Of a stretch of 64,000 nt of DNA, positions 2,172 through 52,370 are shown one piece after another. Within the stretch, counting starts at the first letter, position 1. Each line of letters opens with the position of its first letter. Source of the DNA: Deroplatys truncata (lineage: Eukaryota > Arthropoda > Insecta > Mantodea > Mantidae); assembly GCA_030765065.1 (NCBI GenBank), contig CM060977.1, positions 132,188,295-132,252,294 on the forward strand, in the 5' to 3' direction. Under the pieces are notes generated by a model. The model searched no databases, had not been told where the DNA came from, and saw only the letters and a program-made list of their open reading frames with translations. A program made the position numbers and the translations under genes.

Positions 2172-3104
2172 ATAATGAACCAATAAGTACCTCAGTTGAA
2201 TTGAATACAATGATTAAATTGGACTACATTGACCTTATTTTTGCTCTCGCTAATCAGAGATATAACATTTATTTTCAAACAAATGCTTTGATTTGTTAAG
2301 CTTTAGATAAACTTTTATGTATGGTCAAGTTTTGGCAATAGGTATCACGCATAGTGTGATGATTGAGAATAAATTGAGATATCACAGGACATTTCAAAGC
2401 ATTTAAAAAAATATTTTACTTCATGGACGTAGCACAGATATTTAGATATCTCTTTACTTCACATTTCCCCTTTATCCCTTCCTGGTATAGCCCTAGAGGC
2501 TCCGTCATGAGAACTGATTCTAAGGCTTCAGCGAGTCCAAAAGGTCGGGATTGCCTGCTCTAGAATAATTCTGAGGTACAGCAAGCAGTTAAAAAGACTT
2601 TGCTACCGTTACTAAGTGTTTGATAACGAATTATCGTCAAGATAGTTCTTCGCTCCACCTTCGCAATGGTGGAAAGGAGAATCAGAATTGAAAAATTCAG
2701 GTTAAAGCCGAGCTCGCAGTATTTCTACTCTCCTTCTAGGATATAAATCTCTCTTTGCTGAGATAACCTCCGAGGTCTCAGGGGTAAATGGGAAAGGTTC
2801 GTGGTTGCGTTTAAGGAGGTGGATACGGTAAAAGCGTCAGCACGGAGGATCGAAGATCCGCAGTTCCAATTTTAGCCGTAACTTGAATGTTTCATATTCC
2901 ATTTTCCTCTGCAATTCTTAAAACAATCTTGCGGGAAAATAGCAAAGTTTGTTCTGATTCCAACCAACAGAAATACGAGAAGAATGGAGAATGAAACATT
3001 TTAATGTTCCAACCAATTTACATTATAATTTACAAAGAAAATTATTTGTGCAATTTATATGACCCCATTTTGATTTTTTTTTAATAAGTCAACAACATCA
3101 TGGG
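2172..3104. other. Intergenic DNA, no gene seen
   Basis: AT-rich with a moderately GC-richer patch around 2480-2880. No open frame with a recognisable motif and no repeat match elsewhere in the window that I could see. Confidence 0.45.
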
Positions 3105-3117
3105 CTAGATACTGCAA

Positions 3118-3577
3118 GCCGAGCGGGATGGCTCAGGCGGTAACGTCTGTGGCTGGATTCGGGAGCTCGTGGATTCCATTACCGCGGCCGACCTTCCTGA
3201 CCACTGAGTTTTTCGGGGTTTCCCAGAGTCGCTAGGCGAATGCTGGGAAGGTTCATTACATCCCCCGAATTTTCTGTCCCTCCATTTCACCTCCAATCTC
3301 ATTTCACTTCACCTTTAATCTTCTTGGTCTCTTTCAGGGTTAAAAGTGTCGGCGAGAGTCTCGGCGTTGCATGGCAAGGGAAAATGATGCTCTAATCTTT
3401 ATCCCCCGGAATAGGGACAGTCTCTGAGTTCCGGGTCCCCCAGGGATGTGCAAGCCCGATTGCACCAGCTGATATACGGGGAGTTTCAATCTGTAAAAGG
3501 GCATTCCGTCAGGGACTTAGGCATAAAAGATCTTGTAGGTCGATGTGCTATGTCCCCCTTCGCAATTAGTCCTAGGC
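3118..3577 (+). mobile_element. SINE-1 copy with 13-bp target-site duplication
   Basis: tRNA-derived SINE. The head CCGAGCGGGATGGCTCAGGC is box-A-like, and GGTTTCCCAGAGTCGCTAGGCGAATGCTGGGAAGG is a body segment shared with the copies at 7274, 31381 and 39043. The tail carries AAAAGATC followed by a GTCGATGTGCTATGTCC-type end. It is bounded by CTAGATACTGCAA at 3105-3117 and CTAGATACTGTAA at 3578-3590, a 13-bp duplication with one mismatch. This duplication size fits LINE-dependent retrotransposition. The box-B part is degenerate. Confidence 0.8.
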
Positions 3578-3847
3578 CTAGATACTGTAAACTAAGGTCA
3601 CATGGGAGCAATAGTTTAACCTAAGAAGTGACACTAACGCACCCACATTTAATAAATCCTGAATAATTAAGCATATTATGAAATATTATAAATAGAAAAC
3701 CGAAGTATGAAACACTAAATCTTTATGGGGGCAAGCGGTGAAAAATGCATAATTTTTAGTGCGTTCTTTGCTGCGTCGGTGCTGAAAAGTTACGTACAAC
3801 AATTCGAAGGAAAAACATGGAAACATTTCAAATTTAGCTGAAATCAA

Positions 3848-4285
3848 CCGAGCGGCATACTTCCACTGTAATGCGCGAGACTTGCATTCGGGAGGTCCTG
3901 GGTTCGATTCTTGGGGCCAGTCACTTTGACCATGGGTTTCTCGTGGTTTTCCCTGGTTGGCAAGGCAAATTCTGAGGTGGTTTGTCTTCTACCACGCGTT
4001 TCCTTTCTCCCATTTTCTATCATATCGCTTCCCCTTTCATGTTTCAGGGAGGCCTAGGGTCTGTACAGTGTTGGGCAGATAGCGGAAATGCTTGCTCGTT
4101 GGAAAGTTCTTCCCGGCCCTCCCAAATGGCAGTCTTCTCTGGTCCCCTCGGTTTTCCCCGGTTCCGCCAGAGGGAAGCTTCCTCTGAGCGGACTGGGACC
4201 TCTGCGCATTTCTGTCGGCCGGTCTGCCTGCGGTCTATAACCTCCTGTGGTAGTAAACACAAAGATCCGCGATGAATCGAGGTGC
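3848..4285 (+). mobile_element. SINE-1-related copy
   Basis: Starts CCGAGCGGCATAC and contains a tRNA T-arm-like box B at about 3897-3910 (CCTGGGTTCGATTCTTGGGG). The CCATGGGTTTCTCGTGGTTTTCCCTGGTTGG body matches the copies near 31440 and 47690. The end, AACACAAAGATCC...TCGAGGTGC, matches other SINE-1 tails. It is diverged from the 3118 copy. Open frames of 72-114 codons inside it on both strands are incidental. Confidence 0.7.
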
Positions 4286-5110
4286 AATACTTCCTTGATC
4301 ATACTCAGGTTCACAGCTAAAACGATGTAAAATTGAAGGTGGATCATATTGTGGCGTATGACGTGGCAATACTGTAAGAATATGTGGTGTGGTAACACTG
4401 TATGGTTAACCCTTAGGTTGGCAATGTAAACAGGTAGTGACGTAGAAGTGGAGGGGTTAACTGGTATTATCTTGAGGAAGCGAGTAGTCGGCTTTCTTTT
4501 TGAGCCTTGCTAGTGAACAGAGCAAGATGTATAGGATGACGCTTCGTCAAACCAGAAGGTAATTTGTATCACTCTCTTTTGGTATAATATATTTGACCTC
4601 TAACTTTATAATATGTGAATTAATTACATAGGTGGCCCCATCCTTCCTAATCCATGTTGATGTAATAATATTTCAGTGCTTTTCGGGTGTTATTAAGTAT
4701 TTTGTTAGCTTGCCCCCGTTGAACTTCGTGTTAGGAAAATGGGATGTGATTCTATAGATCTCGGTCCTTTGCTCTACCCCCCGTAATGGAGTGATTATAA
4801 AAGAGGTTTCGACAGTATGGAGGAACTATTAAAATGTACTATTGACTGTTTTTAGACCAACCTATGCAGTTGAAATTATATGTTATAAGAATATAAAGGA
4901 AGTTCGACGGTATTCACATTTGCTTTAAGTCAATAACTAATTAAGGGTAATTTGTATGGCGCCTTTTATGCACTTAGTACGATTTTTACGATTCATTTCC
5001 AAAACATCCGCTAATAGCAGATTGCAATACAGAAGCTGTTGCAAATGCCTGAAATTCAACGCTATGCATGTATTGCGAGGTGGTTTATTAGAAATAATAT
5101 TTCCGACCGT
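4286..5110. other. Intergenic DNA, no gene seen
   Basis: AT-rich. The open frame beginning at 4956 reads through the TTC microsatellite into the antisense of the LINE remnant and is not a credible gene. Confidence 0.45.
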
Positions 5111-5171: not shown

Positions 5172-5507
5172 TCATTGGTCCGAGAATCTTCTCTTGGTTC
5201 TTCCAGCTCCTCTTCCCCCTCTCGGCTTGTATTTTAAAATCTTCTTTGGCATTCTTACATTAATCATTCTATTAACGTCGTCTTCCCATGTCTGTCTATA
5301 ATCAGCTATTTTATCATTTAATTCATACGTTTCCAGACGATTACGAATATCTTCATTGTATAATCTATCTCTTTTTGTGACTCCTAGACATCCTCTCAAA
5401 AATTCCATTTCTACTGTTTGTATCCTACTACGTGTCTTTGTATCAAGGGTCCAAATCTCACTACCATATAATCCACATGGCACCCCCATTGTTTTGTAAA
5501 ACTTCAT
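5172..5507 (-). pseudogene. LINE reverse transcriptase, C-terminal piece
   Basis: The 111-residue frame contains LYGSEIWTLD, then EMEFLRGCLGVTKRDR, NEDIR and a basic tail GGRGAGRTKRRFSDQ. This order is typical of the C-terminal region of insect non-LTR retrotransposon reverse transcriptases, which read LYG.E.WTL...E..FLR...TK.DR..N..IR. No RNase H or zinc knuckle is visible. The ATG is not a real start: the polypeptide continued from the upstream piece at 6744-7075 before the Tc1 insertion. It is non-functional. Confidence 0.8.
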
Positions 5508-5510
5508 TTA

Positions 5511-6715
5511 CACTATGTGATCAAAAGTATCCGGACACCCTCACAAACATACGTTTTTCATCTTTGGTGCATTGTGCTGCTTGGTACTCATTATCCGTGA
5601 CCTCAGTAGTCATTAGACATCGTGAAACAGCAGAATGGGATGCTCCGTGGAACTCACGGACTTCGAATGTGGTCGCTTGTGTCAAAAGTCTGTACGCGAG
5701 ATTTCCACACTCCTAAACATCCCTAGGTCCACTGTTTCTGATGTGATAGTGAAGTGGAAACGTGGAGGGACATATACAGCACAAACGCGTACAGGCCGAC
5801 CTCGTTCTGTTGCTTGATAGAGACCGCCGACATTTGAAGAGGGTCGTAAAGAGTAATAGCAGACATCTATTCAGATCATAATACAGGAATTCCAAACTGC
5901 ATCAGGATCCACTCCAAATACTATGACAGTTAGGCGTGAGGTGAGAAACCTTGGATTCCATGGTCGAGCGGCTGCTCATAAACCACACATCACGTGGGAA
6001 AATGCCGAACGACGCCTCGCTTGTGTAAGGAGCGCCAACATTACACGATTAAACAGTGGCAACTCGTTGTGTGGAGTGACGAATCACGGTACACAATGTG
6101 GCGATCCGATGGCAGGGTATGGTATGACGAATGCCCGGTGAACGTCATCTGCCAGGGTGTGTAGTGCCAGCAATGAAATTCGGAGGTGGTGGTGTTATGA
6201 TGTGGTTGTGTTTTTCCTGGGGCGGCTTGCACCCCTTGTTGTTTTGCGTGGCAAGATCACTGCGCAGACCTACATTTTAAACACCTTCTTACTTCCCACT
6301 GTAGAAGAGCAATTCGGGGATGGCGATTACATCTTTCAACATGATCGAGCACCTGTTCATACTCCACGGGCTGTGGCGGAGTGGTTACACGACAATAACA
6401 TCCCTGTAATGGACTTGAGTCCTGACTTGAATCCTATAGAAATCTTTTGGGATGTTTTGGAACGCCGACTTCGTGCCAGGCCTCACCGACCTACATCGAT
6501 ACTTCTCCTCAGTTCCGTACTCCGTGAAGAATGGGCTGCCATTCCCCAAGAAACCTTCCAGCACCTGATTGAAAGTATGCCTGCGAGAGTGAACTCTGTC
6601 ATCAAGGCTAAGGGTGGGCCAACACCATATTGACTTCCAGCATTACCGATGGAGGACGCCACGACCTTGTACGCCATTTTCAGCCAGGTGTCCGGATACT
6701 TTTGATCACGTAGTG
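5511..6715 (+). mobile_element. Tc1-like DNA transposon, 1.2 kb
   Basis: The terminal inverted repeats begin CACTATGTGATCAAAAGTAT at 5511 and end as the complement of CACTACGTGATCAAAAGTAT at 6715. TA dinucleotides flank both sides (5509-5510 and 6716-6717), the standard Tc1/mariner target duplication. One broken transposase gene lies inside. Length and end structure are those of a full-length Tc1 copy that has lost coding capacity. Confidence 0.92.
5635..6633 (+). pseudogene. Tc1 transposase, frameshifted
   Basis: The N-terminal 60 residues, starting MGCSVELTDFECGRL, carry the paired-like helix-turn-helix (REISTLLNIPRSTVSDVI) and the GRP-type linker TGRPRSVA, then a stop at about 5815. The middle survives only as shifted pieces, including LGFHGRAAAHKP in frame at 5923. 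The C-terminal 158-codon frame at 6157-6633 holds the catalytic segment QHDRAPVHT (second Asp) and LSPDLNPIEIFWDVLERRL (the final acidic residue of DDE). The gene is interrupted by several frameshifts and stops, so it is inactive. It lies in the opposite direction to the LINE it interrupts. Confidence 0.9.
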
Positions 6716-7926: not shown

Positions 7927-8286
7927 ACAAAGAGCAGCTTAGGTCGAGGTGCTAAGTCCCTCTACGCTTCTAGCCCTGTCCTATCCTATCGGCTAGCGTT
8001 CTAGCTTCCAAATTTGGTTTATTTCCTATCCTCCCTAGAGTTTGGATGCTAGTAAGAGCGTGAATCTGTGTGTGATTCTAATTTTAAAACCAAAAGTAAT
8101 AAAACTCAATTAAGACCACATTTAACGAGTTAACATCATTTCTGATGTGCCCGGATATGACGTCATTGGGCACTCTAGAGGTAGTATAGTTTAAGAAGAA
8201 ATACTCATGTTATGTTGCTTGAGATGTAATCTTTGATCAAAAATATAATCTCTGATAAGCAGGGCCCAGATTTGATGACATGTAAT

Positions 8287-9145
8287 TTTTACTTTCTCTA
8301 CTACGTATAGTAAGTAGGGGAAGTATTGCATTCCACCCAAAAATTCGATGTCCAGATTTCAATGGAAATACATGTATTGAGGCTCCCTGAATCCAAAAAC
8401 GGCATTTTTAGAAAAAGGTTCGTGTGCGTGTCTGTTTGTGTGTCTTGAGCAGCGTAACTCAAAAATGAAAAGTTGGATAAATACAAAACTTGGTATTTAG
8501 CTTCAGTGTCTTTCAAAGATGCGATACGAAGATTTTCAAGTAAATCCCCCACTCCAAGCTACCCTTTACATTTTAATTTTCTCAAAAATGGCTCTAACAA
8601 TTTTGATTAAAATATCATATGTTTAAGATATTTTCATGGCAAATGAATGTATATTTTGAATTTGCTGAGAATGCTCCCAAAGGTCTTCTTCATTCTGAAT
8701 GACTTTTGCATAACTGGTAAACCGTAAGAGATAGATAACATTTTACTACACAAAAAATGTAGAGCTCGTTAAAACACACAAGCTTTATTATATATACCTA
8801 TTTGGCCTAGTGAACCATTTCCGAGATGTTTCTTGTTATTTGTTTGAATTTTCCAATGCTTATACTTTTTCTCAAATGGGAATTTGTTATTGTTTTTAAT
8901 TTTTAATTTATGTCCTGGACAAGCAAACAGAATGGAATGTTTCACTTAGCAACCAGCTCTTAAAATATTTGACTATCGCTTAAAGCCTACCATATTCCAC
9001 CTTGCACCTACAAGAAAATTAGCAATAAGATCGTTTCTGCAAATGTTTAGCTCGATTAATATGAAGTAGATGGAGAAGAAACGTTTGTAAAAATAGTTTG
9101 TGCAAGAGTAGAGAAAATCATATGAGTGCTACGCATCAGATTTTT
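8287..9145 (+). mobile_element. Fam-A repeat, full-length copy (plus)
   Basis: All Fam-A landmarks are present in plus orientation, from TTTACTTTCTCTACTACG to CATCAGATTTTT. The GT-rich segment at about 8418-8445 is short and imperfect (GTGTGCGTGTCTGTTTGTGTGTC), an unexpanded state of the microsatellite seen in other copies. Confidence 0.9.
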
Positions 9146-10727
9146 AAATTATTGCATCACAGGTAGTATAACGGGTACATAAATCCTTATCAAGATTATG
9201 AAAATGCATACATTTTTGGTCGTTTTATGCCATTTTCTGTTTTAGGTATTTTTTGATATTACGTCATTATTTTATTTTCTGCCTTTAGCATCTTTACTTA
9301 GAGAATACTTTACTTTTTAATTTAAACTAAGTATGTAAAGATTTTGATATTTCCATTTTACATAAGAATAAGTTTACAAACATCAGAAATTTCAGCATTC
9401 AATTGAGAAATAAGGGTACCCTGAAAAATTCAATGCCACAGCCGATATTTGAACACAGTTCTTCCGCTCTCCGTGCAGTTGCTTTGCCAAGATCAGGCTA
9501 AGGTCTATAAAAAGTATAAGTAATTCCAATTAATTATGTGCATATTTATATAATAATTAAAATGAGAAACCTTGTATATCCTTTACTCCTATTCTTGGTA
9601 AAAAAATCACATTTCTTGGGTGTGGAGTGTGGGAAACAGCTACAATTACTGCTACGAATTCATGTCCGAAAATAGGCATGAGAGAAAGCAATTTTCCGTT
9701 TTTCGCATTAATAAGTTCGCACATTCAGGTTGATATTCTTTTCTTGTCCTTATGTGATGTCTCTTTATTCACAATAAATTTTGTATAATCTGAGAACTCT
9801 CAAAATAATTATGATACAGTTTTGTAAGCCCTACTTCAAAATATTTGTCTTATTTTCTTTTCAGATTCTTCAAACAAGATAATAGAACAAATACATTTTG
9901 AATAAGTTTTCTAAATTATTACATTCTTATACCACTTTTTCTACCTATATAGTAGTGCATAAATTAATTCATAACTTTCTGTACACTAATTTTAATAAAG
10001 TAAATGAATCCCAGTTTTAAGTTATTTTCGTAACTATGTCATTTAAAAAAACTAACAGCCATTTCATGTCACTTTTCATCCTGCTGATTGCAAATAATCT
10101 TAATTAGGTTACATACACTACATGACAATATTCTCTCAGAAATTAAGTACTCTAACGCTATTGTGGAAGGGTCTGTTTCCTAAGCCAAAACCACTGATAT
10201 AACCCCAGGTGTTGAGGCAGAAAGTTAAAGGAAGAAAAAGAATGAAATCTCTGGCTCTTACTACGGGAGAGCAAGCCAAGGAGCTAAAAAGCTCGCGTCC
10301 CGACCTGAATGGAAGTTTTTCACGCTGAAGTCAATTGCAGATGGAGAGTATATTCTTGGAAATGGCGCAGGGTCGTGAATCAACGGGTTGCCTTCTTGGA
10401 TAAAGGCTATGAATCCCCGAGGCACATCCTTCATGACCTGCTGCAATTCAATAATTCACCGCGAAGTGCGTACCCTGTCATCTCACGCATATGGAGAACT
10501 TGGCAAGCATGTTCTGATGACGCAGGCCAGCACAGCCAAAAGTAGGCCAAGCATGGAGATACACTTTGGATTAATGCAAATTGAATAGGAACAAACTTTA
10601 GCTTGGCTACTTTCTGCTTCAACTCCGTGTCGTCGTCAAAAGTAATAAAATAGTAATATTATAAAGCGAGGGAATTTCGTTATCGCACCGTTGTTGCTTT
10701 TATTGATAGATTCTATGCCAAAGAATT
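9146..10727. other. AT-rich intergenic DNA with one SINE-3 fragment
   Basis: Mostly AT-rich without recognisable genes. A tRNA-like SINE-3 fragment sits near 9413-9505. The region 10260-10600 is less AT-rich and has short open frames on both strands (10309-10545 plus, 10261-10446 minus). I recognise no domain in these and do not call them genes. Confidence 0.45.
9413..9505 (-). mobile_element. SINE-3 fragment (tRNA-like, minus)
   Basis: On the minus strand it contains GTTCAAATATCGGCTGTGGC followed by ATTGAATTTTTCAGG. The same T-arm-plus-acceptor-like block (GTTCAAATCCCGGTTGTGGC, then ATTGAATTTTTC) occurs at 47345-47447, so this is a dispersed family. The D-arm half is weak here. Confidence 0.5.
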
Positions 10728-13452: not shown

Positions 13453-13458
13453 TATGTC
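13453..13458. repeat. Target-site duplication, left (TATGTC)
   Basis: TATGTC lies immediately outside the left end of the giant palindrome. The identical hexamer lies immediately outside the right end at 22310-22315. Confidence 0.75.
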
Positions 13459-13489
13459 AGTAGGTATATATAGAGAGATCGAGCACAGT

Positions 13490-14400
13490 TTTTGCGTTTA
13501 TATGGGAAAGGATAGGGAAAACGAGGCTGGATGGGGTGGTTCAAGGAGGAAAATGCGTTTATATGGGGGAGATAGGGAATACGAGGACTGACGCTAGGCT
13601 AGACAGTGGTAGGAGGGGGAGTGCGCTTTATATGAGACAGATAGGGAATACGTGGAGACGTGCTAGGCTAGACAGAGGCTGAGTAATGTATGGTTTATAT
13701 GAGCGGTATAGGAAAACGATGAGAGGTGTTAGACTAGACAGGGCTTGAAACGTAGTGCATGGTTTATATGAGAGATATAGGAAAACGAGGAAAGGTGTTA
13801 GGCTAGACAGAAGTCGAGGAGTAGAGTATGGTTTATATCAGAAGTATAGGAAAACGAGGAGAGGTATTAGGTTAGGAGAATTGAGTTTGTGTTTATAAGG
13901 AGAGACGAGAAAACGGAGAGAGATCCTATGCTAGGATAGACAGGTGTTAAAGTTAGGTTAGATAGGAAACCAAGGAGTGGTACTCAGCTAGAGGGGGGGC
14001 AGGAGGGAATGAGCTTTTGAGAGGTAGGGGATACGGGGAGTGGTGTTAGGCTAGACAGGGCTTGAAACGTAGGGCATGGTTTATATGTATGAGAAGTATA
14101 GGAACAGGAAGAGGGGTGCTAGGCTAGACAGAGGTTGAGGAGTAGAGTATAGTTTATATGAGAGGTATAGGAAAACGAGGAGAGGAGTTAGACTAGACAA
14201 AGGTCGAGGAGCAGAGTATGGTTTATGTGAGCGTCATAGGTAAACGAGAGAGGCGTTAGGCTAGACAGAGCTAGAGGAGTAGAGTATGGTTTATATGAGA
14301 GGTATAGGAACAGGAGGAGAGGTGTTAGGCTAGACAGGCAGTGTAGCAGTAGGAATATGGACTTATATACAGGAGAGATAGGGAATAGGAGGTGCTAGAC
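13490..14400. repeat. Tract 1 (left arm): about 65-bp tandem repeat
   Basis: About thirteen or fourteen diverged units of roughly 62-69 bp. Each has GTTTATATGAGAGGTATAGG, then AAAACGAGGAGAGGTGTTAG and GCTAGACAG. Units differ by substitutions and small indels, so this tract is older than the inversion that copied it to the other arm. Confidence 0.85.
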
Positions 14401-14481
14401 TTGAAAGCGACTTTAGACGTGAACTTAGTGGAAAACTGTTTGTTGTCAATGTTCTAGACATGCCCATCACGTAACCTATTC

Positions 14482-14932
14482 AGGGAAAAGGTGAGTCGTT
14501 CAGGGGAAAAAGGTGACTGCTCAGGGAAAAAGGTGACCCACAAAGGGAAAAAGTCGACCAGTAAAGGGAAAAACGTGACCAGCAAAGGGAAAAAGGTGAG
14601 CAACAAAGGGAAAAAGGTGACCGCCAAAGGGAAAACGGTGAGCCATAAAGGGAAAAGGGTGACTGCTCAGGGAAAAATGTGACCAGCAAAGGGAAAAAGG
14701 TGAGCAACAAAGGGAAAAAGGTGAGCAACAAAGGGAAAAAGGTGACCGCCAAAGGGAAAACGGTGAGCCATAAAGGGAAAAGGGTGACTGCTCAGGGAAA
14801 AATGTGACCAGCAAAGGGAAAAATGTGACCAGCAAAGGGAAAAAGGTAAGCAACAAAGGGAAAAAGGTGAGCAACAAAGGGAAAAAGGTGAGCTATAAAG
14901 GGAAAAAGGTGCCCTGCAACGGGAAAAGCTAA
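14482..14932. repeat. Tract 2 (left arm): 21-bp tandem repeat
   Basis: About 21 units of a 21-bp repeat (GGGAAAAAGGTGACCAGCAAA and variants). A block of several units is itself duplicated: the run from GTGAGCCATAAAGG through CTCAGGG occurs twice. Because 21 is divisible by 3, artificial open frames of 63-118 codons appear on both strands; they are not genes. Confidence 0.9.
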
Positions 14933-14944
14933 CCCACCCACACT

Positions 14945-15400
14945 AACAGGTAAGTAATTCAGCTAGTATTGTAAGAGGCTGACTGGATCATAGCAGTGTA
15001 TGATTTCACAGCTAATTCAGCTAGTATCGTGAGCATTTAAGCTAATTCAGCTAGTATCACAGGAGACTAGATTCCAGAGGCTAACTGCATCATGGCTCTG
15101 CATGATTTCACAGGTAATTCAGCTAGTATCGTAGGTATTTAGGCTAATTCAGCTAGTATCACAAGAGGATAGATTCTAGGGTTGGGTATAGCTTAGTTTC
15201 ATATTTCACAGCTAATTCATCTAGTATCATTGGTATTTAAGGCAAACCATATAGTATCACAGATGCTCGCGCTAATTTAGAGAAGGAATTCGTATCAGAG
15301 TTAGTTAAGGTAATTTCACATGTTTCGGGTAGTATCACAGGTATTAAAGTCATTTTAACGGGCAATTCAACTAGTATCACAGGTACTCATGGTAATATAG
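14945..15400. repeat. Tract 3 (left arm): ATTCAGCTAGTATC repeats
   Basis: Irregularly spaced copies of TAATTCAGCTAGTATCRYAGG at intervals of roughly 40-100 bp, decaying towards 15400. Longer units include a GATTTCACAGSTAATTCAG link. Confidence 0.75.
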
Positions 15401-15755
15401 AGAGTAATTAAATTATAAAACATTTCTCATCCAACGTTACAACAATTTATATACTTTTTTCTAAATCTTACAAACTTATTATATGTTAAACAGTTATTGT
15501 ACGATGCGGAGAGGGATAAACTGCATATTGGTTCACAAATTGAAAAGCTTTACGTTAACATACCTTTATTTTAGTTCGTTGTAGATGTCTCTACCCTTCT
15601 ATCTAGGCTTGAAAATAGCACTAGGATTGCTCCTAATGACAGGGTTACCACCTTCCCTTCCATCTTTTTCTTTCTTCATCAGGCGTCAGCTATCTGCATA
15701 TACAGCACACAGATAACCTTCTTTTTTAAGATTGTAGACTCACGAGAACTATGTA

Positions 15756-16580
15756 ACAACATGATCACGCTATGTAACAACGCGATCACGCTATGTAACA
15801 ACATGATCACGCTATGTAACAACATGTTCACGCTATGTAACAACATGATCACGCTATGTAACAACCTGATCACGATATGTAACAACCTGATCACGCTATG
15901 TAACAACATGTTCACACTATGTAACAACACGATCACGCTATGTAACAACATGTTCACGCTATGTAACAAAATGTTCACGCTATGTAACATGATCACGCTA
16001 TGTAACAACCTGATTACGCTATGTAACAACATGATCACGCTATGTAACAACATGAACACGCTATGTAACAACCTGAGCACGCTATGTAACAACCTGATCA
16101 CGCTATGTAACAACATGTTCACGCTATGTAACAACACGATCACGCTATGTAACAACATGATTACGCTATGTAACAACATGAACACGCTATGTAACAATAC
16201 GATCACGCGATGTAACAACACGATCACGCTATGTAACAACATGTTCACGCTATGTAACAACACGATCACGCTATGTAACAACCTGATTACGCTATGTAAC
16301 AACTGATCACGCTATGTAACAACATGATCACGGTATGTAACAACATGATCACGCTATGTAACAACCTGATCACGCTATGTAACAACATGTTCACGCTATG
16401 TAACAACCTGATCACGCTATGTAACAACATGTTCACGCTATGTAACAACACGATCACGCTATGTAACAACCTGATCACGCTATGTAACAACATGTTCACG
16501 CTATGTAACAACATGATCACGCTATGTAACATCCTGATCACGCTATGTAACAAAACGATCACGCTATGTAACAACAATTT
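15756..16580. repeat. Tract 4 (left arm): 21-bp tandem repeat with variable hexamer
   Basis: About 39 units of roughly 21 bp. ACGCTATGTAACAAC is almost invariant; the next six bases vary among a small set (ATGATC, ATGTTC, CTGATC, ACGATC, ATGAAC, CTGAGC). Occasional units lose 1-3 bases. The order of variants is mirrored in the right arm. Open frames of up to 207 codons across it reflect the 3n period only. Confidence 0.92.
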
Positions 16581-16844
16581 TTCCAGAGTTACACAGATTC
16601 TAAGCTTCTAAATCGAACCTGGTAATACTTTTAATAAATGTATTTTAGCTCCCCAATATCAGCATCTACCATTTAATCTTTACTCGAACCTGATATGATC
16701 CATAAGCTTGAAGATATATGAAATCACCCCTTCTGGATTCGATCTGAGTACTTTAAAGTAATATTTGTCACGATAACGATATTTAAGGACTAGATACTCT
16801 GTTTGCGTTTACCTTGACATGTTTATCTAAATTAAATTACGAGT

Positions 16845-17725
16845 TATTAAATTTTTGCAAGTAAATTTCATTGAATCGGTATTCGAACCCAGAACACCAG
16901 GAACAAAATAATTTATAATATTAGTCTGACATGTTAAACAAAGCTGTATGTAGTTACATCATCGATCTAAGTGATATATTCTAGTGTACAGAGGAAAATT
17001 AAGAAAGTCATTAAAAGATGGGGAATCGAACCAAGCACAACTGATTGGCAATTATATACAGCATTAATTACCCATCATAGAAGCTATCAATCATGCTTTA
17101 GTCCACTCCTCTACCTCACTTAGTTCTCGAGATAATGAAAATGTTAAAATTAGGATCGAACCCAGGACGTCATGTATCTAATTACACATCCACAAGATAC
17201 TACCTAATAACATAAATGCAATAAAGTTTATTTGATGTCTTTATTGTAATTAGTTTAGGAGTTATTAAATTTATAATTAAATTACATTTTATCAGTATTC
17301 GAACCCAGAACACCAAGAACAAAATAATTTATAATATGAGTTTGGTATGCTTAAAGGTGTTGTATGTAGTTACAGCATCAATCTAAGTGATATTTTCTAG
17401 AGTATAGAGAAAAATTAAGGAAGTCATTAAAAAATCGGGATTCGAACTAGAGACAACCGATAAAAAATTATATACAGTATTAATTACACATTATAACAGC
17501 TATCAAACATGCTTTGGTCCATTCCTCTAGCTTTCTTAGTTTCCGAGATAATGAAGTTTTTAAAATTAAGGCTCGAACCCAGGATACCAGGTACCACAAT
17601 ATACATTCACAAGAAACTACCTAATGACATTAATGTAATAAAGTTTATTTGGCGTCTTTATCTTAATTAGTCTCTGAGTTATTGGAAGATGAATTTGCAT
17701 TCACTCCTAGGATTCGAACCCAGGC
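16845..17725. repeat. Tract 5 (left arm): about 140-bp repeats with B-box-like cores
   Basis: Mirror of the right-arm tract at 18044-19160. On this strand the motif reads as GATTCGAACCCAGG-type sequences at roughly 140-bp intervals, for example near 16870, 17157, 17299, 17446, 17574 and 17710. On the opposite strand each is a GGGTTCGAATCC-type tRNA T-arm motif. Confidence 0.85.
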
Positions 17726-17850
17726 ATCCCGGTCAACTTGGAACAAGGTCCTAATGACGCGGCGCATTCCAAAGAATTGATTAGTTTTTATCCCAATGTT
17801 CTATCTCTTGTCATTCAGGAGATATAAGCGATTAAACAGTAGAAATAAAA

Positions 17851-17923
17851 GGTATGTTCTGGCGCACAGAGAGATGCCGACATCTGATAAAGTTCTTTGA
17901 TCTATGCCGGCAAGCTCCGCCCA
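17851..17923. other. Unpaired centre of the palindrome
   Basis: 73 bp between the arms with no counterpart on the other side; it includes GGCGCACAGAGAGATGCCGA and ATGCCGGCAAGCTCCGCC. It is less AT-rich than the arms. It may be what remains of an internal region. Confidence 0.8.
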
Positions 17924-18043
17924 TTTTATTTCTACTGTTTAATCGCTTATATCTCCTGAATGAGATAGAACATTGGGATAAAAACTAATCAATTCTTTGG
18001 AATGCGCCGCGTCATTAGGACCTTGTTCCAAGTTGACCGGGAT

Positions 18044-19160
18044 GCCTGGGTTCGAATCCTAGGAGTGAATGCAAATTCATCTTCCAATAACTCAGAGACT
18101 AATTAAGATAAAGACGCCAAATAAACTTTATTACATTAATGTCATTAGGTAGTTTCTTGTGAATGTATATTGTGGTACCTGGTATCCTGGGTTCGAGCCT
18201 TAATTTTAAAAACTTCATTATCTCGGAAACTAAGAAAGCTAGAGGAATGGACCAAAGCATGTTTGATAGCTGTTATAATGTGTAATTAATACTGTATATA
18301 ATTTTTTATCGGTTGTCTCTAGTTCGAATCCCGATTTTTTAATGACTTCCTTAATTTTTCTCTATACTCTAGAAAATATCACTTAGATTGATGCTGTAAC
18401 TACATACAACACCTTTAAGCATACCAAACTCATATTATAAATTATTTTGTTCTTGGTGTTCTGGGTTCGAATACTGATAAAATGTAATTTAATTATAAAT
18501 TTAATAACTCCTAAACTAATTACAATAAAGACATCAAATAAACTTTATTGCATTTATGTTATTAGGTAGTATCTTGTGGATGTGTAATTAGATACATGAC
18601 GTCCTGGGTTCGATCCTAATTTTAACATTTTCATTATCTCGAGAACTAAGTGAGGTAGAGGAGTGGACTAAAGCATGATTGATAGCTTCTATGATGGGTA
18701 ATTAATGCTGTATATAATTGCCAATCAGTTGTGCTTGGTTCGATTCCCCATCTTTTAATGACTTTCTTAATTTTCCTCTGTACACTAGAATATATCACTT
18801 AGATCGATGATGTAACTACATACAGCTTTGTTTAACATGTCAGACTAATATTATAAATTATTTTGTTCCTGGTGTTCTGGGTTCGAATACCGATTCAATG
18901 AAATTTACTTGCAAAAATTTAATAACTCGTAATTTAATTTAGATAAACATGTCAAGGTAAACGCAAACAGAGTATCTAGTCCTTAAATATCGTTATCGTG
19001 ACAAATATTACTTTAAAGTACTCAGATCGAATCCAGAAGGGGTGATTTCATATATCTTCAAGCTTATGGATCATATCAGGTTCGAGTAAAGATTAAATGG
19101 TAGATGCTGATATTGGGGAGCTAAAATACATTTATTAAAAGTATTACCAGGTTCGATTTA
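18044..19160. repeat. Tract 5 (right arm): B-box-like array in 416-bp triplets
   Basis: Plus-strand TTCGA cores (B-box-like, GGTTCGANTCC type) begin at 18051, 18192, 18323, 18466, 18609, 18739 and 18882, with a weaker ATCGA at 19026 and further copies at 19081 and 19152. Successive spacing is 130-144 bp. The sequence between them repeats every third unit (18192 to 18609, 18323 to 18739 and 18466 to 18882 are each 416-417 bp), giving a higher-order repeat of three monomers. Monomers also contain tRNA-D-arm-like TTAGGTAGTATCTTGTGG or GATAGCTTCTATGATGGG about 40-50 bp upstream of the core. Complete tRNA folding is not evident. Confidence 0.8.
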
Positions 19161-19189
19161 GAAGCTTAGAATCTGTGTAACTCTGGAAA

Positions 19190-20016
19190 AATTGTTGTTA
19201 CATAGCGTGATCGTTTTGTTACATAGCGTGATCAGGTTGTTACATAGCGTGATCATGTTGTTACATAGCGTGAACATGTTGTTACATAGCGTGATCAGGT
19301 TGTTACATAGCGTGATCGTGTTGTTACATAGCGTGAACATGTTGTTACATAGCGTGATCAGGTTGTTACATAGCGTGAACATGTTGTTACATAGCGTGAT
19401 CAGGTTGTTACATAGCGTGATCATGTTGTTACATACCGTGATCATGTTGTTACATAGCGTGATCAGTTGTTACATAGCGTAATCAGGTTGTTACATAGCG
19501 TGATCGTGTTGTTACATAGCGTGAACATGTTGTTACATAGCGTGATCGTGTTGTTACATCGCGTGATCGTATTGTTACATAGCGTGTTCATGTTGTTACA
19601 TAGCGTAATCATGTTGTTACATAGCGTGATCGTGTTGTTACATAGCGTGAACAAGTTGTTACATAGCGTGATCAGGTTGTTACATAGCGTGCTCAGGTTG
19701 TTACATAGCGTGTTCATGTTGTTACATAGCGTGATCATGTTGTTACATAGCGTAATCAGGTTGTTACATAGCGTGATCATGTTACATAGCGTGAACATTT
19801 TGTTACATAGCGTGAACATGTTGTTACATAGCGTGATCGTGTTGTTACATAGTGTGAACATGTTGTTACATAGCGTGATCAGGTTGTTACATAGCGTGAT
19901 CAGGTTGTTACATAGCGTGATCATGTTGTTACATAGCGTGAACATGTTGTTACATAGCGTGATCATGTTGTTACATAGCGTGATCGCGTTGTTACATAGC
20001 GTGATCATGTTGTTAC
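19190..20016. repeat. Tract 4 (right arm): 21-bp tandem repeat
   Basis: Reverse complement of the tract at 15756-16580, with the same order of variant units and only isolated substitutions (for example at 19654 and 19877). Confidence 0.92.
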
Positions 20017-20368
20017 ATAGTTCTCGTGAGTCTACAATCTTAAAAAAGAAGGTTATCTGTGTGCTGTATATGTAGATAGCTGACGCCTGATGAAGAAAGA
20101 AAAAGATGGAAGGGAAGGTGGTAACCCTGTCATTAGGAGCAATCCTAGTGCTATTTTCAAGCCTAGATAAAAGGGTAGAGACATCTACAACGAACTAAAA
20201 TAAAGGTATGTTAACGTAAAGCTTTTCAATTTGTGAACCAATATGCAGTTTATCCCTCTCCGCATCGTACAATAGCTGTTTAACATATAATAAGTTTGTA
20301 AGATTTAGAAAAAAGTATATAAATTGTTGTAACGTTGGATGAGAAATGTTTTATAATTTAATTACTCT

Positions 20369-20824
20369 CTATATTACCATGAGTACCTGTGATACTAGTT
20401 GAATTGCCCGTTAAAATGACTTTAATACCTGTGATACTACCCGAAACATGTGAAATTACCTTAACTAACTCTGATACGAATTCCTTCTCTAAATTAGCGC
20501 GAGCATCTGTGATACTATATGGTTTGCCTTAAATACCAATGATACTAGATGAATTAGCTGTGAAATATGAAACTAAGCTATACCCAACCCTAGAATCTAT
20601 CCTCTTGTGATACTAGCTGAATTAGCCTAAATACCTACGATACTAGCTGAATTACCTGTGAAATCATGCAGAGCCATGATGCAGTTAGCCTCTGGAATCT
20701 AGTCTCCTGTGATACTAGCTGAATTAGCTTAAATGCTCACGATACTAGCTGAATTAGCTGTGAAATCATACACTGCTATGATCCAGTCAGCCTCTTACAA
20801 TACTAGCTGAATTACTTACCTGTT
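20369..20824. repeat. Tract 3 (right arm): GATACTAGCTGAATTA repeats
   Basis: Reverse complement of the left-arm tract at 14945-15400. Confidence 0.75.
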
Positions 20825-20836
20825 AGTGTGGGTGGG

Positions 20837-21287
20837 TTAGCTTTTCCCGTTGCAGGGCACCTTTTTCCCTTTATAGCTCACCTTTTTCCCTTTGTTGCTC
20901 ACCTTTTTCCCTTTGTTGCTTACCTTTTTCCCTTTGCTGGTCACATTTTTCCCTTTGCTGGTCACATTTTTCCCTGAGCAGTCACCCTTTTCCCTTTATG
21001 GCTCACCGTTTTCCCTTTGGCGGTCACCTTTTTCCCTTTGTTGCTCACCTTTTTCCCTTTGTTGCTCACCTTTTTCCCTTTGCTGGTCACATTTTTCCCT
21101 GAGCAGTCACCCTTTTCCCTTTATGGCTCACCGTTTTCCCTTTGGCGGTCACCTTTTTCCCTTTGTTGCTCACCTTTTTCCCTTTGCTGGTCACGTTTTT
21201 CCCTTTACTGGTCGACTTTTTCCCTTTGTGGGTCACCTTTTTCCCTGAGCAGTCACCTTTTTCCCCTGAACGACTCACCTTTTCCCT
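20837..21287. repeat. Tract 2 (right arm): 21-bp tandem repeat
   Basis: Reverse complement of 14482-14932. The artificial open frames at 20892-21248 and 21017-21289 translate identically to their left-arm counterparts, which shows how little the arms differ here. Confidence 0.9.
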
Positions 21288-21368
21288 GAATAGGTTACGT
21301 GATGGGCATGTCTAGAACATTGACAACAAACAGTTTTCCACTAAGTTCACGTCTAAAGTCGCTTTCAA

Positions 21369-22279
21369 GTCTAGCACCTCCTATTCCCTATCTCTCCTGT
21401 ATATAAGTCCATATTCCTACTGCTACACTACCTGTCTAGCCTAACACCTCTCCTCCTGTTCCTATACCTCTCATATAAACCATACTCTACTCCTCTAGCT
21501 CTGTCTAGCCTAACGCCTCTCTCGTTTACCTATGACGCTCACATAAACCATACTCTGCTCCTCGACCTTTGTCTAGTCTAACTCCTCTCCTCGTTTTCCT
21601 ATACCTCTCATATAAACTATACTCTACTCCTCAACCTCTGTCTAGCCTAGCACCCCTCTTCCTGTTCCTATACTTCTCATACATATAAACCATGCCCTAC
21701 GTTTCAAGCCCTGTCTAGCCTAACACCACTCCCCGTATCCCCTACCTCTCAAAAGCTCATTCCCTCCTGCCCCCCTCTAGCTGAGTACCACTCCTTGGTT
21801 TCCTATCTAACCTAACTTTAACACCTGTCTATCCTAGCATAGGATCTCTCTCCGTTTTCTCGTCTCTCCTTATAAACACAAACTCAATTCTCCTAACCTA
21901 ATACCTCTCCTCGTTTTCCTATACTTCTGATATAAACCATACTCTACTCCTCGACTTCTGTCTAGCCTAACACCTTTCCTCGTTTTCCTATATCTCTCAT
22001 ATAAACCATGCACTACGTTTCAAGCCCTGTCTAGTCTAACACCTCTCATCGTTTTCCTATACCGCTCATATAAACCATACATTACTCAGCCTCTGTCTAG
22101 CCTAGCACGTCTCCACGTATTCCCTATCTGTCTCATATAAAGCGCACTCCCCCTCCTACCACTGTCTAGCCTAGCGTCAGTCCTCGTATTCCCTATCTCC
22201 CCCATATAAACGCATTTTCCTCCTTGAACCACCCCATCCAGCCTCGTTTTCCCTATCCTTTCCCATATAAACGCAAAAA
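21369..22279. repeat. Tract 1 (right arm): about 65-bp tandem repeat
   Basis: Reverse complement of 13490-14400, unit order preserved. Confidence 0.85.
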
Positions 22280-22309
22280 CTGTGCTCGATCTCTCTATAT
22301 ATACCTACT

Positions 22310-22315
22310 TATGTC
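22310..22315. repeat. Target-site duplication, right (TATGTC)
   Basis: Identical to 13453-13458 and directly abutting the last base of the right arm (…CCTACT). Confidence 0.75.
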
Positions 22316-24465: not shown

Positions 24466-24870
24466 AAACATTAAATGGCAATAATTATGAATTCAGAAGA
24501 AACTGAAATGAAGAGCCAGGTGAAATTACAGAAGCAGCAGAAAGAACAACCTAGAAGTACTTGCCCAAAAAATCCAGAAAGCAATACGATATAGCATTTA
24601 ATTGCTTCATTGGCTGCTGTAAGGCAAAACAGGTTGAAAATAATTTCACTAAAATGGCCGCTAGCTAATAAAAAAAACATGAAAACATCTGACATCTCGC
24701 TTTTGTAACATAGTTTCTCTTGTTTCAAGGCCGTAGGCCTTCGTTTCGCAAACATTCCTACTCTCAAAATGAAACCCTACTTTTATCCCCCGTATGATAA
24801 TCTCGTACTATTATGTTCATGCATACAAATGAATTAAAGGGATTTTTCAAACCAAGATAAACTTTTTATT
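24466..24870. other. Intergenic DNA, no gene seen
   Basis: The minus-strand open frame at 24471-24767 has no recognisable motif. Confidence 0.4.
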
Positions 24871-25719
24871 TCTTTCTCTACTACGTATAGTAAGCAGGGG
24901 AAGTATTGCATTTCACCCAAAGATTCGATACAGAGATTTCACTGGAATACATGTTTTGAGGCCCCCTGAATCCAAAAAGAGCATTTTTAGGAAAAGGTCC
25001 GTGTGTATGTCTGTGAATAGCATAACTCAAAAACGAAAAGTCCGACATATACCAAACTTGGTATTTAGGTTTACTATCTTTCAAAGATGCTACACTAAAA
25101 TTTTCAAGAAAATTCCCCCACCCCACACTACCCTCTACATGGAAAATGTTTCGAAAATTTTGATTTTCTCAAAAAATGACTTTAACGATTTTTATTAAAA
25201 TATCATATGTTTCAAACATTTTCATGGCAAATGAAGTGTATATCACCAATTGCCTGGGAATGTCCCCAAAATGTCTTCATTGAAATGTATTTTGCATAAC
25301 TGGTAAACCGTAAGAGATAGGTAACATTTTTAACACAAAAATGTAGATCTCGTTAAAACACACAATTTATATCATATACATTTTTTTGTGGAGTGAACCA
25401 CTTCCGAAATGTTCCTTGTTATTTGTTTGAATTTTCCAATTCTTATACTTTTTCTCAAATGTGAATTCGTTATTATTATTATTATTTTTTTTTTGTTATG
25501 TTCTGGACATGCAAAGAGAATTGAATGCTCCACATAGCAACCAGCTCTTAAAATATTTGACTATCGCTTAAAGCCTACCAATTCCCCTTGCATCTACAAG
25601 AAAATTAGCAATAAGATTAACATCTCGATTAACGTGAAGCATATGGAGAATAAGCGTTTGTAAAAATAGTTTGTACAAGAGTAGAGAATGTCATATGAGT
25701 ACGACACATCAGATTTTTT
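24871..25719 (+). mobile_element. Fam-A repeat, full-length copy (plus)
   Basis: Starts CTTTCTCTACTACGTATAG and ends CACATCAGATTTTTT. The microsatellite site is minimal (GTGTGTATGTCTGTG). Confidence 0.9.
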
Positions 25720-26150
25720 AAATAACTAGCAGTTTAATCAAACTTTTGCTGCATGCGATTATCATGACTGTATATGGAATTTGAGCACAAAGTTCTGTTA
25801 CAATTCACTGTTTGAATACTTAGAAAAAGGTACAACGAGGATTTTTGTTATTATTATGTTTTTGCAATGTTTATCTTAATGTGCCAGGAAAATTTTTAAA
25901 ACTTTCGGCATTAGTTAAAATGTGTATTTCAAATGCTGATGCCCAGTTCATTACATTATCTTAACAGCTTTGGAAGCTATAGCTAATTGTTTGTAATCAC
26001 ACATTTTCACCAACGTCCCCCCCTTAACTGTCTTCATTTTCATAATGCACTATAATTTTTCTATTATGGTTATATACAGGAATTTATTTATGTGGTTGTT
26101 TCTTTTATTAGTTCTCTGTTTTGTCTTTTGTGCTAAATTGTGTTATGTTA
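25720..26150. other. Intergenic DNA, no gene seen
   Basis: AT-rich spacer between two Fam-A copies. Confidence 0.45.
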
Positions 26151-26984
26151 TTACTTCCTCTACTTGTATTGCATCCCATCCAAAAATTCGATACCGAGAT
26201 TTCACAGGAAATATGTTTTGAGCTGCACTGAATGCATATAAAGCATTTTTCGAAACATGTCCGTGTGTGACTGTTTGTGCACAGCATAACTCAGAAACGA
26301 ACAGTCGGATAAACACCAAACTTGGTATTTAGGTTCAGTATCTTCCAGAGATGTGACACGAGGTTTTACAAGAACATCTCCCCACCCCAGATTACCCTTT
26401 ACATGAAACATTTTTCGAAAATTTTAATTTTCTCAAAAATGACTAACGATTTAGATTAAAATATCATATATATATATATAAGATACTTTCATGACAAATA
26501 AAATGTATATCTTGAATTTTCTGGGAATGTCTCCAAAAGTATTCTTCATTGTGAACGACTTTTGCATAACTGGTAAACCATAAGAGATAGACAAAATTTT
26601 ACTACACAAAAAATATAGATCGCGTTAAAGTACACAATTTATGTCATATACGTTTTTTTGTTTTGTTGAGTGAAGCATTTTTGAGATATTGCTTGTTATT
26701 CCCTTTAATTTTCCAATACTTAATACTTTTTCTCAAATGGGAATCCGTTATTCATTTTTTTTTGTCCTGGACATGCAAAGAGAATGGAGTACTCCACATA
26801 GCAACCAGCTCTTAAAACACTTGACTATCGCTTAAAGCCTACCAATTCCCCTTGCATCTACAAGAAAATTAGCAATAAGATTAACATCTCGATTAACATG
26901 AAGCATATGGAGAATAAGCGTTTGTAAAATAGTTTGTACAAGAGTAGAGAAAGTCATGTGAGTGTAACACATCAGATATTTTTT
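26151..26984 (+). mobile_element. Fam-A repeat (plus), left hairpin lost
   Basis: Begins TTACTTCCTCTACTTGTATTG: the ACGTATAGTAAGTAGGGGAAG segment typical of the left end is missing. The rest of the element is present through CACATCAGATATTTTTT. Confidence 0.85.
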
Positions 26985-27796
26985 AATATTTACGTTAATG
27001 TATTATGTAAGTATCTTAAAAGTTTTCGTCTGGTACATTAGAAGAGATGGCCCACCCGATATAAGAGTAAACACATAAAATAGAGATGTTGTATACCTCC
27101 TTTACGAGAAGAGCACTACAGCACTGGTTTCTGGATCAGATCATGGTAATTCAACCGCGAGGATTCCTTAGCCGCTGTGAGCATTTGAAATTGCGAAAAA
27201 GTAGAGCAGTTTAGAACTCATAGCGAACGCACACACATATCTAGTTATACATTTTTCAAGATAGCCTGATAAACATCAGGCGAAGAGAGAGAGAGAGATA
27301 AAACCTGCAAAAGTAAGAAAACTTTGAAATGATGGAGCTTCTCAAAGTTACAATGATGTACATTATTATTGTTGTTGTTGCCTGTTTCCCATCCATCATT
27401 TCCACCGTTTCTGTCCGCATAACAGAACGACCTCCTCAAAAACAGTCTATAAAGAAACGTTTCTCATCGCTTTATCATCGCAGAATGTAACTTGAGAACT
27501 CTTGGCGCCAAACTGATGCGTCGACTTCAGAGCTTGTTAGCCCACTTCCTTCAATTGCAGACTATGATACGAGACAGTCAATTCGATAACCACACTTGCA
27601 ATTACGCGATTGCCGCCGACGCTTTAGCTGAACGTTGGTTTATCAGAGAGCATAGCAGTGGCTATCACAATAATTGGACCAAACTGTGGACATTTCAACG
27701 TCTGTGTTCACTTTTAGCAAGCCACCGTCAATTAATTCGCAAATGTTTAGACAAATCCATAAAACAGTTCTTGAGAAAAACATTATCTTTTCGTTT
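26985..27796. other. Intergenic DNA with an unrecognised open frame
   Basis: Contains a plus-strand frame at 27492-27818 (108 codons) whose last part runs into the adjoining Fam-A copy. The upstream part, including CNYAIAADALAERWF, has no domain I recognise. GA-rich and GTT-rich simple runs lie near 27280 and 27365. Not called as a gene. Confidence 0.35.
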
Positions 27797-50460: not shown

Positions 50461-51071
50461 AGTATCTTCCAGAGATGACCCTCCCAATCCAGATTACCCT
50501 TTACATGGAACATTTTTCGAAAATTTTAATTTTCTCAAAAATGGCTCTAACGATTTTGATTAAAATATCATATGTTTAAGATATTGGCATGAGAAATGAA
50601 ATGTATATCTCGAATTTTCTGGGAATGTCTCCAAAAGTATTCTTCATTGTGAACGACTTTTGCATAACTGGTAAACCATAAGATATAGGCAAAATTTTGC
50701 TATACAAAAAATGTAGATCGCGTTAAAATACACAATTTATGTCATATACATTTCTTTTGTTGAGTGATCCGTTTTCGAGATATTGCTTGTTATTCCCTTA
50801 AATTTTCCAATACTTATACTTTTTCTCAAATTCGTTATTCGTTTTTTTATGCCCTGGACATGCAAAGAGAATGGAATGCGCCACATAGCAACCAACGCTT
50901 AAAATATTTTGACTATCGCTTAAAACCTACCATATTCCCCTTGCATCTACAAGAAAATTAGCAATAATATTAACATCTCGATTAACATGAAGCATATGGA
51001 GAATAAGCGTTTGTAAAAATAGTTTGTACAAGAGTAGAGAAAGTCATTTGAGTGTAACACATCAGATTTTT
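50276..51071 (+). mobile_element. Fam-A repeat (plus), part of the tandem duplication
   Basis: The diagnostic variants CCCAATAATTCGATTCGGAG and GAGATGACCCTCCCA are shared only with the copy at 52371. A long pure (GT)n at 50415-50459 directly replaces about 60 bp present in the sister copy (CTGTAAGCAGCATAACTCAG and onward). Confidence 0.9.
50415..50459. repeat. (GT)n microsatellite inside Fam-A
   Basis: More than twenty GT units at the conserved Fam-A microsatellite site. Confidence 0.92.
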
Positions 51072-51084
51072 ATGCTGATTTCAG

Positions 51085-51608
51085 AACAGCTTTTTGTAAG
51101 GGCTCTACCACATGATGGACTCTGCTTCAAGGACCTTTCCAAGAAATTTCCCTTCATTACACAACACAAATTAAAGGCTGGAATTTTTGTTGGTCCTCAA
51201 ATAAAGAAATTGATGAAGGATGAAGATTTTAAGAAGACAATGAATGAGAGAGAAATAGAAGCATGGACCTTCCGATCAGTTACTGAAAACTTCTTAGCCA
51301 ATAACAAAGATCCTAATTACAAGGCCGTTGTCGAAACAATGTTGGAAATTTTCAACAAGATGGGTTGTAACATGAGTGGAAATGTGCATTTTCTGCACTC
51401 ACATATCGACTACTTTCCAGAAAATCTGGGACATTATAGTGAAGAGCAGGGTGAACGTTTTCACCAAGATATTAAGGAAATGGAGAGGAGGTAACAGGGG
51501 AGATGGAATGAAACTATGATAGCCGGCTACTGTTGGATGTTGAGGAGGGACCATCATCTTCAAGGATCTGCAAGAATGCAAAGAACAGAAAGCTTGAAAA
51601 AAATTCAA
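51085..51608 (+). pseudogene. Decayed conserved arthropod protein, copy B
   Basis: After the acceptor-like TGCTGATTTCAG at 51084 the frame reads EQLFVRALPHDGLCFKDLSK, HKLKAGIFVGPQIKKLMKDE, a long helical middle, CNMSGNVHFLHSHIDYFPEN, LGHYSEEQGERFHQDIKEME and RR, then a TAA at 51492-51494. The same frame then continues QGRWNETMIAGYCWMLRRDH to a stop at 51606. One premature stop is the main visible lesion, so this copy is better preserved than copy A. It lacks the LLPPLHI segment that copy A has upstream. Function unknown. Confidence 0.68.
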
Positions 51609-52370
51609 TGAAACACTTTGCTTCTTGTTTTGTTAAAATGTAGTCACGAAATAAATTAGGGGAGTTCTTGAGAGTATTCTTAAATGTTTCTTGAATAAAT
51701 ACTTACCTTGTGTGAGATGGAATTTGAATACTTTTCTACGCTCATTAGTAAAATTGTCAAAACATTACTTATTTTGTGTACAAACCTGACGTGATAGAAA
51801 AAACGAAAGTTATTTCTGGAATCAGCATAAAAACTTGATTCAACAACACTTACCTTTAAGAAATCATCTGACAAAAAGTTTGAAAATGCAGACTAGTGTA
51901 ATTATTCTTTTTCCCTTTAGACTCCATACAATTCCGCTTCCGCCACAAGACAAGGCACTTCAACCTGAAACAGGCTTGCCTGCTACAGAATCTAGGACTA
52001 AATAAGGAGCAACTTATCCTTCGCTTAATAAGGTGAATATTGAATCCAACATGCCTAAAGAATATAGGTAAGGATGGTGATAAGGGCTTTTACTCTTCCT
52101 TTTTTGTTTTTCATACACCCCTAAATCACTTTATAAGGTGTTTTGGAAATCCGATAAAATGCCAAATTGAATCAAAATGCGTAAAGTATAACAAATGCAA
52201 AATGTATTGCAATTCATTGACTTTTTTTTCAAATGAAAATGTATAAAGCAAAATGAAAACATGTTTATGGAATCTTTGCCTAAGTAAACTAAAGTTTGAA
52301 CCGTTACACGTGAAGAAAATGTGAAAAACACTTCTTTTCTTCTCTCAAGAGGTTTGTTACCTTTTTGCTT
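51609..52370. other. 3' flank of copy B with an extra insert
   Basis: Matches 49825-50275 except for about 290 bp at roughly 51796-52088. The insert includes TTTCTGGAATCAGCATAAAA, the reverse of the exon-edge sequence at 49175-49190, and CCGCCACAAGACAAGGCACT, which has a diverged relative at about 53887-53910. No credible gene. Confidence 0.6.

Follow-up and report, generated by a model that had tools for sequence, protein, structure and literature searches.

A palindromic, polymerase-coding transposon family, probably derived from Polintons, in the mantis Deroplatys truncata

How does a stretch of almost 9 kb come to be a near-perfect palindrome, and what placed it in an insect genome? We addressed this question for the palindrome at positions 13459-22309 of a 64,000-nucleotide stretch of Deroplatys truncata DNA (assembly GCA_030765065.1, contig CM060977.1, positions 132,188,295 to 132,252,294 of the forward strand), here called the window. 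The palindrome has relatives elsewhere in the genome that share its anatomy, its AGTAGG ends and its 6-bp target-site duplications. Ten of them carry sequence of a DNA polymerase gene, PolB, in both arms, and this gene shows a pattern of selection that separates elements from arms. We consider it likely that these copies form a family of palindromic, Polinton-derived transposons with PolB in each arm and, as read, without integrase, and that the window palindrome is a PolB-less, non-autonomous member of this Polinton-like family.

The palindrome and its copies in the genome

Alignment of 13459-17850 with the reverse complement of 17924-22309 gave 4,392 columns with 7 substitutions and two indels, one of 1 bp (at 13993) and one of 5 bp (17806-17810). 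The first-pass annotation of this DNA had described reverse-complementary arms of about 4.4 kb that differ by a few substitutions and a single 5-bp indel; the alignment bears this out, except that the 1-bp indel had been missed. The coordinates that it gave for an unpaired 73-bp centre, for the AGTAGG/CCTACT ends and for the TATGTC abutting both of them are exact. The two palindrome ends are the only places in the window with the end motif AGTAGGTATATATAGAGAG, even when up to 3 mismatches are allowed (mean in shuffled sequences, 0.02). The parts of the palindrome are as follows.

13453-13458, no strand: left target-site duplication TATGTC (6-bp duplications also in 15 of 15 other copies examined)
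13459-17850, plus strand: left arm, starting AGTAGG, as defined by the arm alignment
13459-15748, plus strand: outer arm (arm positions 1-2290), containing tandem repeats (69, 21 and 102 bp) and a little unique sequence
15749-16576, plus strand: 21-bp satellite array, 39.6 copies, at the place of PolB in the 14.5-18 kb copies
16575-17850, minus strand: inner arm (arm positions 3117-4392), a portion of the spacer of large copies, which lies between their divergent PolB genes; box-B-like motifs
17851-17923, no strand: unpaired 73-nt centre between the arms, with matches near the centre of other copies
17924-22309, minus strand: right arm, ending CCTACT
19193-20020, minus strand: right-arm mirror of the 21-bp array
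22310-22315, no strand: right target-site duplication TATGTC

Most of each arm consists of tandem repeats, with units of 69, 21, 102 and once more 21 bp, and a 416-bp repeat, listed for the right arm only, lies in the inner arm. Reading frames of at least 100 amino acids (aa) within the palindrome are inside the tandem arrays or run into them. The 21-bp array is equally long in both arms (826 bp between anchors). Three substitutions fall within it; judged against the neighboring units, the left arm seems to have acquired two of them and the right arm the third, as expected of arms that age independently. Scans for tRNA genes and Rfam families gave no match in the palindrome, despite the presence of box-B-like motifs. 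Eight such matches (core TTCGA) are located at 16575-17850, with their mirror, on the PolB coding strand; they are spaced 71-274 bp apart, often ~140 bp, and directed outward. These motifs are possibly sites for RNA polymerase III factors or for other proteins.

A 200-bp end query was used to search the genome (4.29 Gb). It returned 3,522 candidates at first look. The 40 that were scored represent, by orientation and distance, 14 pairs and 12 singles, i.e. 26 places. We examined 16 elements, namely every pair and, from the singles, C5:210.7 and C4:207.5 Mb; the other 10 singles are outside this sample. The ends of the 16 score among the highest, and the sample may therefore lean to young copies. 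All 16 are bordered by AGTAGG/CCTACT when one-base variants are allowed (left end AGTAGC in C4:207 and ATTAGG in C16:675), and all 16 are flanked by exact 6-bp duplications, that of C16:675 at its mutated left end. The first-pass annotation had proposed such a search and had argued that the palindrome inserted as a transposable element. The ends and duplications of all 15 other copies support this view. By eye, the 16 duplications show no common target sequence:

First eight: TATGTC, ATGACG, CAGGTC, TTGGTA, GGAGAA, TGCAAT, GACGTA, GCTGTT
Other eight: AATGTG, AATGTG, TCTGTG, CCAATC, GCTAAG, TTCACT, GGCCAT, TGCACT

The ends of the C13 and C6:122 copies (L017-L018 and L021-L022), which occupy different sites and have different duplications, show no difference in the 1,100-1,200 bp compared, and the two arms of each copy are 100% alike over 4.7 kb. 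This points to very recent movement. The copy at C6:113.53 Mb (L030) contains a central 1,044-bp tandem duplication (2695-4781; 99.8% identical), which perhaps arose from template slippage or switching at the center.

PolB in elements and arms

PolB, by its likeness to Polinton polymerases presumed to be protein-primed, is present in both arms of 10 of the 16 elements, in one arm of 1 and in none of 5. The ten are 14.5-18 kb long, with PolB sequence (at least the C-terminal part) facing outward in both arms; C6:122, C1:53 and C16:675 were read at their ends only, and there only the C-terminal part was seen. The copy with one PolB left, in one arm, is C6:10 (10.06 Mb; 10.95 kb). The five PolB-less elements (the window copy, C2, C15, C6:210 and C14) measure 6.1-9.0 kb. 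Each arm of the large copies runs from a repeat-rich outer arm through PolB stop, PolB start and spacer (arm positions 3117-4392) to the center, where the mirror begins; they are palindromic through the middle (C13, 99.4%; C4:31, 99.9% over 3.8 kb). The outer arm of the window copy matches, in blocks, both ends of PolB-bearing copies. In all five PolB-less copies the 21-bp array replaces PolB between arm positions 2290 and 3117, in both arms of the window copy, C2, C6:210 and C14 and in the one retained arm of C15. Left and right arrays agree in length to within about one unit (826/826, 825/826, 722/700 and 826/847).

The PolB protein has ~1,200 aa, as put together from two adjoining pieces of C13. 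It matches the DNA_pol_B_2 profile (PF03175; E 1.8e-27, in one of three pieces scanned) and also contains an Endonuclease_7 match; in PHROGs, two PolB pieces and two antisense frames matched endonuclease VII only. The motif DTDS is invariant across 10 aligned PolB sequences. The protein is related to animal PolB proteins; among the matches listed, the top species-named ones come from Hylaeus (67%), Halyomorpha (55%) and Rhodnius (54-55%). A PDB sequence search with PolB gave no match, and no PolB was confirmed in viral contigs. Exact end and repeat patterns were without match in the viral contigs, a collection that may leave out records near this genome.

We surveyed frames of at least 150 aa in 15 relatives, 12 of them read throughout and 3 at their ends only. 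They correspond to PolB, to tandem arrays or frames running into them, and to one exception of 187 aa in C5:210. No integrase frame was found at this length, with no integrase profile run on the family. Packaging ATPase, protease and capsid frames were likewise not found within this scope, where shorter or broken genes could escape. Since the survey was done on pieces, it could also miss a frame that is divided between two pieces or that mutation has interrupted.

To compare arms with elements, we used the last 1,596 bp of PolB in the ten elements (20 arms). At 66 columns elements differ while both arms within each agree (2 of the 66 are frame-breaking indels of C9). Differences between the two arms of an element occupy 51 columns, and two indels account for 8 of these. 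At all 51, one arm's state is private to that copy, and at none are both states found elsewhere. Thus, none of the observed arm differences was passed on by a transposition. Private arm mutations are present in 8 of the 10 elements, with a maximum, in C4:207, of 17 columns over the 1.6 kb.

Between elements, the pooled ratio of non-synonymous to synonymous differences (pN/pS) was 0.20 (21 non-independent pairs from 7 copies; single ratios 0.04-0.37), suggesting that most of these differences arose in a replicating lineage under selection. Between the arms of the ten elements we counted 10 synonymous, 31 non-synonymous and 2 stop codon differences, superseding a five-element count of 1 synonymous and 10 non-synonymous. 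This is about the proportion expected without constraint, assuming that one fifth of changes are silent. The counts indicate that PolB is under purifying selection between elements and changes near-neutrally between arms. Together with the privacy of the arm changes, this pattern argues that each copy inserted with matching arms, which decayed afterwards. The two halves are apparently made identical again at every move of the element, and symmetry would be the rule at insertion, though several present copies are asymmetric. In C9 the same PolB frame breaks occur in both arms, indicating either mirroring of a broken PolB no later than insertion or conversion afterwards.

The outer ends were compared twice, over 1,200 bp of 13 elements and over 1,100 bp of all 16. 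In the latter comparison the two ends of an element are sisters in 12 of 16 cases. Among the remaining four, C13 and C6:122 form an identical quartet, the window ends group with the C2 ends, and C5:210 has no resolved placement. Measured by distance, the closest end is strictly the element's own partner in 9 of 16, with ties in 3. The end pair of C6:10 showed 14/1073 or 63/1072 differences depending on the alignment, an effect of tandem repeats, and was not relied on.

Relation to Polintons, proposed mechanism and alternatives

According to extracts of PMC6431247 and PMC5718144, Polintons have both PolB and an integrase. Vertebrate Mavericks make 6-bp duplications and have ends of (AG)3 or (AGT)2, the intact ones with terminal inverted repeats (TIRs) of 46-1,447 bp (extract of PMC8097293). 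The palindromes resemble Polintons/Mavericks in their DNA_pol_B_2-type PolB, the 6-bp duplication, the terminal inverted repeats and the ends starting AGTAG, with AGTAGG matching 5 of the 6 bases of AGTAGT, the (AGT)2 form reported for vertebrates. In contrast to the short TIRs of Mavericks, their inverted repeats span nearly the whole element. They further differ in having two PolB genes, or no gene at all in the window copy, and in that integrase, ATPase, protease and capsid frames were not found in the 12 relatives read through. The family is thus outside the Polinton definition in integrase, other genes and TIR layout. By its ends, duplication and polymerase it looks Polinton-derived and may work like a Polinton. 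Among the papers listed in a search of the open-licence literature, none describes, by title or start of abstract, a palindromic PolB-only element, which is weak evidence of absence.

Classical Polintons reside in the same genome. One at C12:22.17 Mb (L040/L041, 22.16-22.18 Mb) has an rve+chromo integrase, a dUTPase and other long frames; its TIRs and ends were searched for and not found. PolB frames of the same length as at this locus (1,281 aa) are present at many other loci. A second family, with a PolB of 1,276 aa, is represented by three copies (C9:3.10, C12:189.36 and C14:8.56 Mb; 99.3-99.5% identical over 6 kb), with an rve+chromo integrase, an ATPase-like gene (Pox_A32 match) and one PolB. 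The two copies read, C9:3.10 and C12:189.36, share with the palindromes PolB and 6-bp duplications (TACATC and TGCGTG, by eye), and have AGTAGT/ACTACT ends. They differ by their single PolB, their integrase and other genes, and a 137-bp TIR (98.5%) listed for C12:189; the six rows shown for C9:3.10 are flanking repeats. The 76 of 11,882 candidates that were scored in a genome search with PF03175 included, by eye, no inverted same-family pair within 20 kb, suggesting that single-PolB elements are common in this genome. Note that these 76 omit all 16 examined elements and are far from complete. The resident Polintons are candidate donors of integrase in trans.

We propose that the element is copied as linear DNA, with PolB priming at its ends. 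A single strand would then fold into a hairpin with the 73-nt center as loop, and either copy-back or mismatch repair on the hairpin would make both arms from one template. Integration would be performed in trans by the integrase of resident Polintons, whose ends also begin AGTAG and whose duplications are also 6 bp long. In the window copy, the 21-bp satellite would have taken the place of the lost PolB, and PolB elements and an integrase source would have helped the copy to move. Palindromic defective genomes are known. Adenovirus replicates as linear, protein-primed DNA whose displaced strand forms a panhandle (extract of PMC9863843). The likeness lies in the proposed protein-primed linear replication and self-annealed single strand; here, the palindrome is an inherited, integrating family. 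More tentatively, and at somewhat less than an even chance, there may be a three-tier chain of parasites, in which palindromic polymerase elements use a polintovirus integrase and PolB-less palindromes exploit both.

Several observations weigh against this interpretation. The transposition steps are read from sequence, and protein priming from the family to which PolB belongs. With the palindromes the resident AGTAGT Polintons share only AGTAG and the length of the duplication, and PolB of C14:8.56 is only 23% identical to the palindrome PolB (290-aa part compared); the palindromic family is therefore not a recent by-product of the 1,276-aa-PolB Polintons. The absence of integrase rests on frames of at least 150 aa in pieces, at 16 of 26 places. 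In 4 of 16 elements (C2, C6:10, C5:210 and C4:207) the end of another copy is nearer than the element's own. Asymmetric copies are C15, C2, C6:10, C4:31, C1:137, C9, C6:113 (central duplication) and C5:210, whose right-arm PolB has no counterpart of residues 1-408 of the N-terminal piece. Finally, PolB is broken in some copies, by frame breaks in C9 and by stops in C16:675, C5:210 and C1:137.

Compatible with the Polinton-derived palindrome is an origin by gradual inward spread of the TIRs until the halves matched, rather than by copy-back of the PolB end of a Polinton. TIR extension is described for Galileo (extract of PMC3573991), and the origin left no witness here. However, gradual spread requires the loss of all other genes and a second PolB acquired by conversion, whereas one copy-back event yields both. 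We regard this route as doubtful, though worth serious consideration.

Alternatively, arm-to-arm gene conversion after chromosomal insertion, and not the transposition cycle, may keep the arms alike. Long palindromes convert in other genomes, and the mirrored differences, taken alone, as well as the mirrored frame breaks of C9 would fit. Conversion of mutations that arose after insertion nevertheless predicts neutral mirrored differences, and those observed are biased toward synonymous changes, as the pooled pN/pS indicates. Moreover, private arm differences persist unerased, as in C4:207. Conversion is thus an unlikely main cause of the symmetry.

Foldback (FB) elements make 9-bp duplications. 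The FB and Galileo elements of Drosophila resemble the palindromes in their long inverted repeats of tandem arrays and in copies that are little more than two arms; for Galileo, long internally repetitive TIRs reaching up to the whole copy are known (extract of PMC3573991). An ordinary TIR transposon of this kind, with expanded repetitive ends and a cut-and-paste transposase, is nonetheless highly improbable here. Galileo makes 7-bp duplications (same source), has a P-superfamily transposase and is unrelated by gene content, whereas the 16 palindromes have 6-bp duplications, PolB is the only gene recognized among their frames of at least 150 aa, and the 187-aa frame is the only one unexplained. 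An inverted chimera of assembly or library can be dismissed with near certainty, even though near-perfect inverted repeats are a known failure product, given that the 16 copies occupy different sites and are each flanked by a separate 6-bp duplication, and that most of the PolB elements compared (8/10) have private arm mutations.

Other repeats in the window and implications

Elsewhere in the window, an interspersed repeat of ~850 bp is present in full or in part, at ~79-94% identity. It begins near AAAATCTGATGTG and ends near ACGTAGTAGAGAAAG, and its places include:

1326-2179
8284-9150
24861-25724
26166-26991
52362-53192
58975-59815

Remnant frames of other repeats are located at 5172-5507 (minus strand), 6157-6633 (plus strand) and 51024-51494 (plus strand). 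The first two are presumably reverse transcriptase and Tc1/mariner pieces; the third is a member of a large protein family of arthropods and others. Matches to an ORF of the window include proteins from arthropods, molluscs and metagenomes.

To our knowledge, Polinton replication has been modelled rather than watched. Arms that are equal at each insertion would be a fossil record of the replication step, and they argue for a self-annealed intermediate, either a hairpin or a panhandle. The family also suggests that polymerase and integrase are separable in this group, giving rise to satellites within satellites. Many multi-kilobase palindromes are known as fragile sites (extract of PMC7999016), and the family described here is one source of palindromes of this size. 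If the three-tier chain is true, the palindrome itself would be a replication strategy, with one strand containing both ends and two polymerase genes and being proofread against itself.

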